This document shows positions 5,337-13,958 of a stretch of 29,396 nt of DNA, one piece after another. Location of the stretch: the IMG/VR virus record IMGVR_UViG_3300042154_000371, positions 1 through 29,396 of that record, one strand, 5' to 3'. The DNA is from a virus. The notes beneath the pieces were generated by a model that was given only the letters and a program-made list of their open reading frames with translations, made no database searches and was not told where the DNA came from. Positions within the stretch are counted from its first letter, which is position 1, and each line of letters opens with the position of its first letter. A program made the translations under genes and the position numbers.

Positions 5337-6209
5337 ATGATTAGACATGGTAAGAATGTTCACGAACTTGTGTTGGCAGGTAGTGAAGTAAAAGTAGCTA
5401 TTCTTAGTGATTTGCACTGGGATAATCCTCACACTGATAGAGATCTAATTAAGAGGCACCTGGACTATTGCCTAAAAGAGGAGATACCTGTGATGATTAA
5501 TGGTGATATGTTCTGCTTAATGCAGGGGAGAGGTGATAACAGGAGGAATAAATCTGATATAAGACCTGAGCACAATAATGCTAGGTATTTAGATAGCATA
5601 GTAGAGACAGCTGTAGAGTGGTTCCTACCATACGCTCACATCATTAAGCTAATAGGATACGGTAACCATGAAACTGCTATAATTAAATTTCAAGAGACTG
5701 ATATCCTGCAGAGATTTGTAGATATCCTAAACTTTAAAGCAGGATCTAATGTGCAGGTAGGTGGTTATGGTGGATGGCTAATAATAAAGCAATCATTAGA
5801 AAGCACTACCTCATCTTTTTGCACTAAGATTAAATACTTCCATGGATCAGGTGGTGGTGGTATAGTTACCAAAGGTGCTATCAATTTAACTAGGGCATTA
5901 GAACTATATGAAGGGTTTGATGTATTCGTGATGGGACATATCCATGAGAACAGCTGTAGAAATGATGTAAGAGATACAGTAGAAAGCCATCCTGCATCTG
6001 GATACACACTTAAGCAGAAGCAATTACACCTCATGCTAACAGGTACCTACAAAGAGGAGTACGGTGATGGATCTCATGGATGGCATGTAGAGAGAGGTGC
6101 ACCCATTAAGCCATTAGGTGGTAGGATACTTACCATTAAATGTGTGAGAGACTCTACTAAAGAAAGAAAAACTACCAAATATATAGATAGTATCAAATTT
6201 AATATGTAA
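5337..6209 (+). CDS. Calcineurin-like metallophosphoesterase
   Basis: A 290-residue protein with the whole metallophosphoesterase signature: D25-L-H27 in ILSDLHWDN, GD at 56-57 (NGDMF), GNHE at 109-112, H169 in KYFHGSGGGG, and GHIH at 200-203. The family uses two metal ions to hydrolyse phosphomono- or diesters; the substrate cannot be told from sequence. It has no signal peptide and is probably cytoplasmic. It is the last gene of the connector/lysis operon, four bases after the spanin stop, and is followed by a strong terminator. Possible roles include nucleotide or nucleic-acid processing; an anti-defence role is conceivable but unproven. Confidence 0.85.
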   Translation: MIRHGKNVHELVLAGSEVKVAILSDLHWDNPHTDRDLIKRHLDYCLKEEIPVMINGDMFCLMQGRGDNRRNKSDIRPEHNNARYLDSIVETAVEWFLPYAHIIKLIGYGNHETAIIKFQETDILQRFVDILNFKAGSNVQVGGYGGWLIIKQSLESTTSSFCTKIKYFHGSGGGGIVTKGAINLTRALELYEGFDVFVMGHIHENSCRNDVRDTVESHPASGYTLKQKQLHLMLTGTYKEEYGDGSHGWHVERGAPIKPLGGRILTIKCVRDSTKERKTTKYIDSIKFNM

Positions 6210-6244
6210 TTTTGCACTAGGTCAATACGCCCAATGTGTTACCT

Positions 6245-6287
6245 AAGCCCTCTGCACCTTTGGTTAGTTTAGCAGGGGGTTTTTTTT
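6245..6287 (+). terminator. Strong intrinsic terminator after the lysis operon
   Basis: CCCTCTGC (6248-6255) pairs with GCAGGGGG (6272-6279) with one T-G wobble, around a loop of 16 bases, followed by eight T residues (6280-6287). The outer AAG pairs with the start of the T tract. It separates late lysis genes from the early control region. Confidence 0.9.
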
Positions 6288-6555
6288 GTCACAAATCTTT
6301 GTAGAATTGTACCTACTTATTTTACTTTGTTGGTTATAACTAACATAGTAGCTATAATAATGTCTTAATGTAAGATATAACTAACATATTAACCACTTTT
6401 TGTAAAGTATATTTAAGGTTATATCCTGCTATAAGGGCAACTTTTATAAGGTTTTACCCTTATTCCTTATTTAGAATGATTATTGATAACGCAAAAGTTG
6501 TATACAATTAATTGTTTGTTCGTATATTTGCTTCACTAATTAAAACTAACCAATT
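6288..6555. promoter_or_regulatory. Repeat-rich early control region
   Basis: No gene is seen here. It holds a 13-base direct repeat TATAACTAACATA at 6335-6347 and 6376-6388 (41 bases apart), two TATAAGG copies (6430-6436, 6445-6451) followed by two inverted CCTTAT copies (6458-6463, 6465-6470), the perfect palindrome TTGTATACAA (6498-6507), the palindrome CAATTAATTG (6505-6514), and a Bacteroidetes-type promoter. It precedes the early operon and probably binds regulators. Confidence 0.6.
6498..6530 (+). promoter_or_regulatory. Early promoter (Bacteroidetes type)
   Basis: TATATTTG (6523-6530) matches the Bacteroidetes -7 consensus TAnnTTTG. A TTG at 6498-6500 lies 22 bases upstream and may be the -33 element; the spacing is slightly long. 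That TTG is part of the palindrome TTGTATACAA, so a dimeric repressor bound there would block the promoter. The leader AACTAACCAA (6544-6553) then precedes the ATG at 6556. Confidence 0.65.
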
Positions 6556-6735
6556 ATGAACGATCAAAATCTAACAGCTGTTGAGTACCTACTCCAGCAA
6601 ATTAACTCAGGCACATCCTTTACAGAAGAGAAATGGAAGCTGATCTGCGATGTGGCTCTAGCCATGGAGAAATCACAAACAATCCAAGCAGAAATTAAAG
6701 CAATTGATAACCTTTACAAAATTCAAAAGAAATGA
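6556..6735 (+). CDS. Small early protein, unknown
   Basis: A 59-residue soluble, helical protein (starts MNDQNLTAVEYLLQQI, ends LYKIQKK). It is the first gene after the early promoter and shares the AACTAACCAA leader with the primase and ERF genes. It has no cysteines beyond one and no membrane segment. I do not recognise a family. Its TGA overlaps the ATG of the next gene (ATGA), showing coupling. Being the first early gene, it is a candidate host-takeover or anti-defence factor, but this is only inference. Confidence 0.65.
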   Translation: MNDQNLTAVEYLLQQINSGTSFTEEKWKLICDVALAMEKSQTIQAEIKAIDNLYKIQKK

Positions 6736-7370: not shown

Positions 7371-7630
7371 AAGAAACAGCAGTAGAGTGGCTTAGAGAAA
7401 AGCTAAGATTAGAATTTGGATTTGTATTTAGTGATAACATATTAGAACAAGCCAAAGAAATGGAGAAGGAGCAGATGAAAGATTCATATAAACAAGGCTT
7501 TGCTTATCGAGATACTTGGAATTGGGAACTTGACGTAGATTGGTATGAAGACTCAACACAAGAAAACAATCAAGAATTTGAACAATACTACAACGAAACC
7601 TTTAAATCTGAGAGCAATGAATCAGTATAG
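7367..7630 (+). CDS. Acidic early protein, unknown
   Basis: An 87-residue soluble protein, helical in the first half (EWLREKLRLEFGF) and very acidic in the second, ending FKSESNESV. The pattern AVEWLREKL...FSDNILEQAKEMEKEQ resembles short hypothetical proteins frequent in Bacteroidetes and their phages. It overlaps the HTH gene by 14 bases. Confidence 0.6.
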   Translation: MKETAVEWLREKLRLEFGFVFSDNILEQAKEMEKEQMKDSYKQGFAYRDTWNWELDVDWYEDSTQENNQEFEQYYNETFKSESNESV

Positions 7631-7814
7631 GATGATGAGAGTAATAAAACTAATACAGTTTTTACAGGTTAAGCCTAGGCCTATTCACTCAATGGCTAGA
7701 TATTTAGGCATCAGCACTAGATCAGTTTACAGATACTTAAAGATGTATGAAAAGATTGGTTATGATGTGCAGAAAGATGATAACTACAAATACTATATCA
7801 ATGAAACGCTTTAA
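7617..7814 (+). CDS. Small helix-turn-helix protein
   Basis: A 65-residue protein made almost wholly of a helix-turn-helix (about residues 10-45: IKLIQFLQVKPRPIHSMARY followed by LGISTRSVYRYLKMYEKIGY), resembling the HTH_11/DeoR-like domain. It probably binds DNA and may regulate phage promoters such as the palindromic region at 6498-6514. The frame is open from 7545, but I choose ATG 7617 because it starts just before the stop of the preceding gene, fitting the overlapping-gene style here. The stop overlaps the next start at 7801. Confidence 0.65.
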   Translation: MNQYRMMRVIKLIQFLQVKPRPIHSMARYLGISTRSVYRYLKMYEKIGYDVQKDDNYKYYINETL

Positions 7815-9392: not shown

Positions 9393-9499
9393 CTTGTCAT
9401 AAAATCGCTAATACTCAATAGCAGTGCGGATTTTGCTAAAAAAAACTTGTCATAAACTTGTCATAAACCCGTCATAAAATACCCTAAACTTGTCATGAT
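9393..9499 (+). repeat. Iteron-like repeats, CTTGTCATAAA
   Basis: Copies of the 11-base unit are at 9393-9403, 9446-9456 and 9457-9467. Variants are CCCGTCATAAA at 9468-9478 and CTTGTCATGAT at 9489-9499. The middle three are in perfect tandem, one helical turn apart, and the last lies two units (21 bases) further. A reverse-oriented TTGTCATA is at 9314-9321, and a partial TCTCGTCAT at 9384-9392. The last copy contains the TTG of the primase promoter -33 element. Confidence 0.85.
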
Positions 9500-9521
9500 T
9501 AAGAATAAATGTGTATATTTA
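9490..9521 (+). promoter_or_regulatory. Promoter of the primase-helicase operon
   Basis: TATATTTA (9514-9521) differs by one base from the TAnnTTTG element, and TTG at 9490-9492 lies 21 bases upstream within the last iteron-like repeat. The leader AACTAACCAA (9529-9538) follows, then the ATG at 9542. A protein bound to the repeats would probably repress or control this promoter. Confidence 0.6.
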
Positions 9522-9541
9522 CAGCCTAAACTAACCAATAT

Positions 9542-13377: not shown

Positions 13378-13406
13378 TATATTTGTAAACAATTAATAAC
13401 TAACCA
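13378..13406 (+). promoter_or_regulatory. Promoter and leader of the recombination genes
   Basis: TATATTTG (13378-13385) matches the Bacteroidetes -7 element. The leader AACTAACCA (13398-13406) abuts the ATG at 13407. I see no good TTG at -33, so the promoter may be weak or activator-dependent. Confidence 0.6.
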
Positions 13407-13958
13407 ATGGAAAAAACAACTACAAGGGCTGCAAAGCCTAAGGAGGTTGAGCAGCAGCCTGCTCCCTTCTATGTGAGGCTTCACCAAGCTAAACAACTTA
13501 TCGGTAAAGTACATAAGAATGCTACTAACCCCCATTTTAAAAAGTCCTATGCAGATATCAATAGTATCTTAGAAACTGTTGAGCCTATTTTATTACAGCA
13601 TGATCTACTTTTGCTACAGCCTATAGAAGGTGGTAGTGTGTGTACTCAGATTGTATGCATATACACTGGCTTTAGTATCTCTAGCTGTATGACTTTAGAT
13701 CTTAGCTTGGATGCTCAGAAGCAGGGCTCACAGATTAGCTACTTCAGAAGGTACACTATTCAAAGCTTACTTACTTTACAAGCTACAGATGATGATGGGC
13801 ATATAGCAGCAACTGCAAAGCCTAAGATGGATAACAAAAGATTTGCTGAGGCAGTGAAAGCTATAGCAGATGGTAAGTATACTGTAGATAAGTTAAAGGA
13901 TAGCTTTGATCTTACAGATGTGCAGATTAATTCACTACTATTAATACCTGTAATATGA
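13407..13958 (+). CDS. erf: ERF-family single-strand annealing protein
   Basis: A 183-residue ERF-type recombinase, which anneals complementary single strands during phage recombination. The diagnostic parts are NPHFKKSYADINSILETVEP (41-60) and GSQISYFRRYTIQSLL...DDDG (107-131, quoted by parts), both matching the ERF core. The C-terminal 45 residues are helical and variable, as in the family. It overlaps the exonuclease gene by four bases, the classical exonuclease-annealase pairing. Transcription probably starts at the TATATTTG promoter immediately upstream. Confidence 0.9.
   Translation: MEKTTTRAAKPKEVEQQPAPFYVRLHQAKQLIGKVHKNATNPHFKKSYADINSILETVEPILLQHDLLLLQPIEGGSVCTQIVCIYTGFSISSCMTLDLSLDAQKQGSQISYFRRYTIQSLLTLQATDDDGHIAATAKPKMDNKRFAEAVKAIADGKYTVDKLKDSFDLTDVQINSLLLIPVI

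Follow-up and report, generated by a model that had tools for sequence, protein, structure and literature searches.

We propose that a short antisense RNA, encoded immediately upstream of the repeat-rich region that precedes the early operon of a phage, acts in trans to block translation of early genes, and that the repeats themselves are operator modules. We give this reading a probability of about 0.72. Four computational observations carry it: a two-hairpin RNA structure, covariation in its stems, exact complementarity between its terminator loop and sites at three early gene starts, and a joint change of loop and leaders in one subclade of relatives.

The window, by which we mean the whole stretch analysed, is the 29,396-base virus record IMGVR_UViG_3300042154_000371. 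It carries genes for a portal, a terminase, a tail tape measure protein and an endolysin, and also for an Erf-like annealing protein, an exonuclease and a primase-like protein. That the phage infects Bacteroidota is suggested by its TATATTTG promoters and by a BT4734-like domain in the primase. Within the subset of ORF proteins that was scanned, no integrase or phage repressor was named. Megablast of window positions 1-24000 against named phages gave no match, and tblastn with the metallophosphoesterase found just two records. With so few matches in named phages, relatives were taken from IMG/VR as the contigs matched by the primase and the metallophosphoesterase (best 80 per query). Among the matches listed, these gave at least 58 distinct intergenic regions, including one with the same sequence as in the window. 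One contig, IMGVR_UViG_3300027754_000223 (L012, L013, L105 and L107), holds two primase and two metallophosphoesterase matches in 37,405 bases. The members of each pair are spaced 27,842 bases apart, so this is probably a genome of about 28 kb whose assembly runs past its own start.

A predicted small RNA with two hairpins

The proposed RNA and its parts are as follows.

6207 to 6214, + strand: -7 box TAATTTTG (TAnnTTTG), with the predicted start at A6219, the first base of P1
6219 to 6285, + strand: proposed antisense small RNA of about 67 nt, adjoining the repeats on their upstream side; the apparent terminator of the preceding operon
6219 to 6244, + strand: hairpin P1, which forms in 39/39 distinct sequences
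6246 to 6281, + strand: terminator hairpin P2, with a 16-nt loop at 6256 to 6271 and then a T run; forms in 39/39
6260 to 6270, + strand: antisense seed TTGGTTAGTTT, within the P2 loop, with the core GGUUAGUU

The Bacteroidota -7 box spans -12 to -5 according to the passages of PMC9723704 cited here, which places the start for a box at 6207-6214 at A6219; we infer that the RNA is transcribed from this position. The TAnnTTTG box was kept in 63 of 65 distinct 148-nt segments that had been selected by their loop (62 found by a pattern script, and L049 by inspection), the exceptions being L151 and the L006/L169 contig, which carry TAnnTTTA. It was also kept in a variant about 12 nt longer, where it is displaced from the stop codon, and in L018 and L196 it stands behind a different upstream ORF and not behind the metallophosphoesterase. 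A TTG at -33 is absent from this promoter in the window. The ORF that precedes the small RNA in those two contigs (L018:4394-5188 and L196:2120-2926) is unrelated, and its stop TAA begins the -7 box.

Folded alone, the window RNA forms two hairpins. The 39 distinct sequences have 24 different predicted P1 stems, some of which differ in length alone. Since MAFFT mis-registered P1 in the 39-sequence alignment, pairs were counted on an alignment fitted to the structural model. In that structure-fitted alignment of 37 distinct rows, both sides had changed in 10 of 17 stem pairs (6 of 6 model pairs in P1 and 4 of 11 in P2), and 95.7% of cells were paired, as against 52-59% for slid partners. The arms of P1 had a mean of -6.9 with their own partner versus -2.0 across sequences (21 of the 24 stems entered). 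The P2 loop contains UUGGUUAGUUU; in minimum-energy folds part of the seed is paired within the loop, and 4-6 of 8 bases stay unpaired.

A covariance model matched the window at 6215-6286 with an E of 1.2e-10. Model R1 matched 64 of 66 sources, which were chosen for having the loop, once each, and missed L049 and L151; L050 and L284 are missed as well, and L151 appears at E 0.4. Searched at E up to 1 against 72 distant loci, of which many are short and may lack the region, the model found nothing. A pattern that placed no constraint on the loop matched at 28 places; the loop there was the standard one in 25 and a variant in 3. Rfam 15 gave 0 matches in the window at gathering score; below that threshold there were nine matches up to E 10 within 6150-6600, the best with E 0.4. 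By its predicted structure, consisting of P1 and P2, both of which covary, the region would be a discrete structured RNA that ends in a terminator. A search for a host or prophage copy, using a pattern of the loop plus GCAGGGG (one stem type), returned a single stretch in the genome collection, inside a coding region of a Denitrovibrio MAG; it was judged a chance match.

Complementarity between the terminator loop and early leaders

The promoters and predicted leaders of the three genes concerned are given below.

6498 to 6530, + strand: early promoter, with TTG at 6498-6500, -7 box TATATTTG at 6523-6530 and a spacer of 22
6535 to 6555, + strand: predicted early leader, 21 nt, with the target AAACTAACCAA at 6543-6553, before ATG 6556
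9514 to 9521, + strand: primase promoter box TATATTTA, leader to 9541, target at 9528-9538, before ATG 9542
13378 to 13385, + strand: Erf-like promoter box TATATTTG, leader to 13407, target at 13398-13407, overlapping ATG 13407

With its TAnnTTTG -7 box and -33 TTG, the early promoter has both elements of the Bacteroidota sigma-A consensus, as set out in the cited parts of PMC9723704 and PMC6847099. The 32 bases preceding its TATATTTG come in 28 versions among the 58 listed regions. Predicted leaders are 21, 16 and 17 nt long for the early, primase and Erf-like mRNAs, and their folding energies are 0, -0.7 and 0 kcal/mol. Flavobacterium initiates translation without Shine-Dalgarno pairing, and structure and adenines at the start region tune the process (PMC6847099, in the sections cited). 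Upstream of the primase promoter, AAACTTGTCAT is found at 9443, 9454 and 9486 and AAACCCGTCAT at 9465, with an 11-bp tandem period over 9443-9496, and the last AAACTTGTCAT copy (9486) contains the TTG of the promoter at 9490. To judge from their sequence, these tandem copies look like a phased activator or repressor array.

The seed TTGGTTAGTTT at 6260-6270 is the exact reverse complement of AAACTAACCAA at 6543-6553. The shared 10-mer AACTAACCAA occurs exactly four times in the window, once in the terminator loop (- strand) and three times at early gene starts (+ strand): before ATG 6556, at 9529 before ATG 9542, and at 13398 over ATG 13407. When the loop was paired with all 52 ORF starts, ORF 6556, the primase (9542) and the Erf-like gene (13407) had the longest pairing (12, 11 and 10; next 8), and the same three had the best duplex energy (-13.5 or lower; next -10.8). 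None of 2000 shuffled loops paired over at least 10 with all three leaders (best 9); 31 of them formed at least 7 pairs with each of the three. If one mismatch is tolerated, four matches to AACTAACCAA are unremarkable (mean 2.85; 31 of 100 shuffles reach 4); all four sites are exact, and the share of positions as near as this to an ORF start is 1.2%. By energy, several places away from start codons (one is 21467, at -18.1) equal or surpass these sites in binding the loop, and the antisense argument therefore rests on position and conservation.

This complementarity was conserved among the relatives. For the early leader, with starts picked from the promoter block and two early regions lacking a readable start, all 34 of 34 distinct readable loop/leader pairs had at least 7 Watson-Crick pairs and 32 had at least 10. 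Pairing over at least 7 was found in 27 of 28 distinct combinations for the primase, the L049 primase having no site (4 bp), and in 29 of 29 for Erf. Among rows with all three leaders, 19 of 22 passed 7 bp, and the failing rows fit L049 plus two with a mis-picked early start (L202 and L161, 3 bp). In several relatives, such as L114, L141 and L145, the target is duplicated within one early leader (ACTAACCAAT...AACTAACCAATG); two copies in a single leader would double the pairing site.

Loop and leaders also change together. One subclade, represented by 4 contigs of the viral collection, has the variant loop TTAGTGGTTTGG, and an early leader with AAAACAAACCA was found in exactly these 4 contigs. 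The Erf leader ACTACAAACCAATGG occurs in 7 contigs, three of them among the 4 with the variant loop. As for the remaining ones, L310 looks unrelated by its flanks, and three further contigs have no metallophosphoesterase match in the record and an unreadable loop. In L049 the loop, the early leader and the Erf leader are all changed in one contig (about 5.6 kb). Since L049, L050 and L284 share one 148-nt segment and L151 alone differs, the variant loop is probably the product of one evolutionary event, yet two separate targets changed in step with it. The exposed seed is matched at three of 52 starts and shows compensatory change, namely the joint change in L049. In a more distant group (L068, L070 and L062) the early and Erf leaders are AAACTAAACAA-like, and a search for a second antisense RNA found no complementary loop near a terminator in the loci examined. 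As such leaders occur in these distant relatives with no loop to match, the motif may be older than the RNA.

We considered three other accounts of the same sites. In one, AACTAACCAA would be a repressor operator downstream of three early promoters, and the terminator copy a further site or a coincidence. In the predicted transcripts the sites do fall at about +3 to +19, where operators can sit, and a changed repressor could shift all of them together, as in L049. An operator would leave unexplained, however, why the complement occupies a 16-nt loop that is flanked by covarying stems and preceded by a conserved -7 box. The position of the site, moreover, follows the start codon, from which it is 0-3 nt distant, and not the -7 box, from which it is 6-13 nt distant, so that we hold this account to be very improbable. 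It is also unlikely that leader pairing by the small RNA serves to activate or stabilise the early mRNAs. Complementarity and covariation by themselves give no sign, and leader pairing can protect 5' ends; the 16-21-nt leaders are unstructured, though, so there is no inhibitory structure to relieve, and pairing that spans most of the leader up to or over the AUG leaves little room for a ribosome. The third account takes AACTAACC as a general leader or initiation signal and the complementary loop as chance or as a cis-acting terminator feature. It would accommodate the distant relatives with AAACTAAACAA leaders and no matching loop, and it agrees with the finding that A-rich leaders favour initiation in Flavobacterium (PMC6847099, in the sections cited). 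We nevertheless find it hard to believe, given that exact copies occur at three starts only, that their register to the AUG varies, and that in the L049 subclade the loop has changed along with the leader.

Repeats, palindromes and modules before the early promoter

Between the terminator and the early promoter we distinguish the following elements.

6283 to 6309: module c, about 25 bp, inverted at the same place in L099, L100 and L068 (reverse-strand match)
6328 to 6391: module d, with both TATAACTAACATA copies; proposed operator pair
6335 to 6347 and 6376 to 6388: direct repeat TATAACTAACATA, 13 bp, copies 41 bp apart
6400 to 6427: module e, TATATTTAAGGTTAT plus flank; pattern in 37/58 listed regions
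6430 to 6470: block with TATAAGG units at 6430 and 6445 and CCTTAT units at 6458 and 6465
6465 to 6491: module h, CCTTATTTAGAATGATTAT...; core pattern in 56/58 listed regions
6498 to 6507 and 6505 to 6514: palindromes TTGTATACAA and CAATTAATTG, 10 bp each

The original prediction had described dense repeats and palindromes at 6335-6530, with one palindrome taking in the TTG of the early promoter. Every repeat and palindrome that it named is present where it was placed, and TTGTATACAA indeed contains TTG 6498. The claim of unusual density held for the direct repeat, since one of at least 13 arose in 1 of 1000 dinucleotide shuffles of 6335-6530, but not for the palindromes, since two or more of 10 bp arose in 178 of 1000 such shuffles and are, within the window sequence alone, no more than chance would give. 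Alignment with relatives, which had been proposed as a check, also gave a divided answer. Exact repeats are absent in most: TATAACTAACATA occurs at least once in 22 of the 58 listed regions and as an exact pair in 10 of 58. The 41-bp module, in contrast, is kept, as a repeat pair with up to 3 mismatches per copy stands at exactly 41 bp in 44 of 58 listed regions; the remaining 14 of 58 have no such pair at spacings of 36-45 bp. Of the other elements, TTGTATACAA is found in 17/58, CAATTAATTG in 10/58, TATAAGG in 7/58 and CCTTAT in 48/58 listed regions.

In relatives, the stretch from the terminator to the early promoter has conserved ends and a middle that is a mosaic of present, absent or inverted modules. 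Over ten scored patterns, the 58 listed regions showed 29 patterns of module presence (one pattern, d1, was too strict and matched none of the 58). Module c, scored by pattern, has its reverse form in 36/58 and its forward form in 13/58 listed regions. Module d also precedes a different early promoter in L068, whose primase is 63% identical. No consensus RNA fold of the repeat module was found in 42 distinct sequences, aligned by cutting at the fixed 41-bp spacing; the shuffle control was also about zero and so contributes little. Given the fixed 41-bp spacing, the lack of a consensus RNA fold and the swappable nature of the module, the direct repeat is best read as an operator array that acts at the DNA level. 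The pair behaves like protein sites about four helical turns apart, and from this behaviour we infer protein binding. The ORF at 7545-7814, in the early operon, encodes a protein of 89 aa whose HTH_11 match barely reaches the curated cut-off (25.2 versus 25 bits); this protein is a candidate for the repeat binder.

The earlier suggestion that the structure reflects either binding proteins or a small RNA is partly borne out, on both sides, in that the repeats behave as DNA sites and a predicted small RNA, for which the computational case is good, sits upstream of them, at 6219-6285. A small RNA within the repeats is not what we see: the predicted RNA lies outside them, and its predicted targets are the early leaders rather than the repeats. 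The repeats contain AACTAAC, and we tried a reading of them as decoys for the loop. It was rejected, as relatives substitute GCCAAC, ACCAAC or GCTAAC for this motif and the early promoter is located downstream of the repeats. We also think it improbable that this AT-rich region is a replication origin with the repeats as initiator sites. Its 24% GC, its direct repeats and the adjacent early genes would suit an origin, whereas the repeat has two copies only, the 41-bp pair is missing in 14 of 58 listed relatives, and cumulative GC skew shows no reversal there.

Proposed mechanism and known systems

In the antisense reading that we favour, the small RNA would start at its own -7 box, fold into P1 and the terminator hairpin, and display the seed, with its GGUUAGUU core, in the terminator loop. 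The seed would then pair in trans with the 16-21-nt leaders of the ORF 6556, primase and Erf-like mRNAs, just before or over the AUG. As the duplex would cover most of the leader, initiation should be blocked, and the most likely way is that a covered leader stops ribosome binding. The predicted outcome is a brake on early, replication and recombination genes, which could be applied through rising template dosage or late-gene takeover. Separately, the repeats and palindromes at 6335-6530 would provide the early promoter with operator modules, which relatives exchange as cassettes.

A bolder version, which we offer tentatively and regard as doubtful, is that the 67-nt RNA is the master brake of this phage, for which no protein repressor was named, and that one loop silences three early genes at once. 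If true, such an RNA would give a dosage-dependent shut-off of replication or an RNA-based immunity against related incoming phages, and loop and leaders together would make up an RNA immunity code that evolves, with two or more natural specificities.

Few small RNAs of phages are known to have defined targets in the phage itself. For the present candidate a structure and three targets are predicted and a compensatory variant exists in nature, so that it can be tested directly with reporters. If the antisense reading is true, the early programme would be under post-transcriptional control in a group of phages that has been widely sampled and whose hosts initiate without Shine-Dalgarno pairing. 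It would also mean that an apparent terminator can conceal a regulator where its loop is unusually large and invariant.

Among the matches listed in our literature search, there was no phage antisense RNA of such design and no small RNA with defined phage targets in a Bacteroidota phage. Several known systems are comparable in part. The C4 RNAs of P1 and P7 and the CI RNA of P4 pair with phage transcripts and control early or antirepressor functions and immunity. The predicted RNA resembles them as a small RNA that pairs with phage transcripts, but it belongs to another host phylum, uses a single loop as its seed, has replication and recombination genes as its targets, and gave no Rfam match at threshold. 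T4-type phages have mobile regulatory cassettes, small control modules that are exchanged between genes. The modules described here are likewise small and exchangeable, but they are short DNA modules stacked in one intergenic region upstream of an early promoter.

The sar RNA of P22, likewise small and antisense, base-pairs with an mRNA of the phage and hinders translation initiation (PMC12197685, in the passages cited), and the likeness lies in antisense pairing directed against a translation start. In those passages sar has one described target, ant, whereas the prediction here is of one terminator loop that acts in trans on three different early mRNAs. The OOP RNA of lambda, also treated in the cited passages of PMC12197685, is a short phage RNA antisense to the mRNA of the cII regulator and thus again an antisense RNA acting on a phage mRNA; it is described there as antisense to cII, while in the window two of the three predicted targets lie far from the place that encodes the RNA. 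For Rfp18 of Flavobacterium psychrophilum, one stem-loop region is predicted to pair with several mRNAs (PMC9723704, in the parts cited). The predicted phage RNA shares with this flavobacterial small RNA the use of a single stem-loop for several predicted mRNAs, and differs from it in that Rfp18, as presented there, is chromosomal and has host proteases as its predicted targets.
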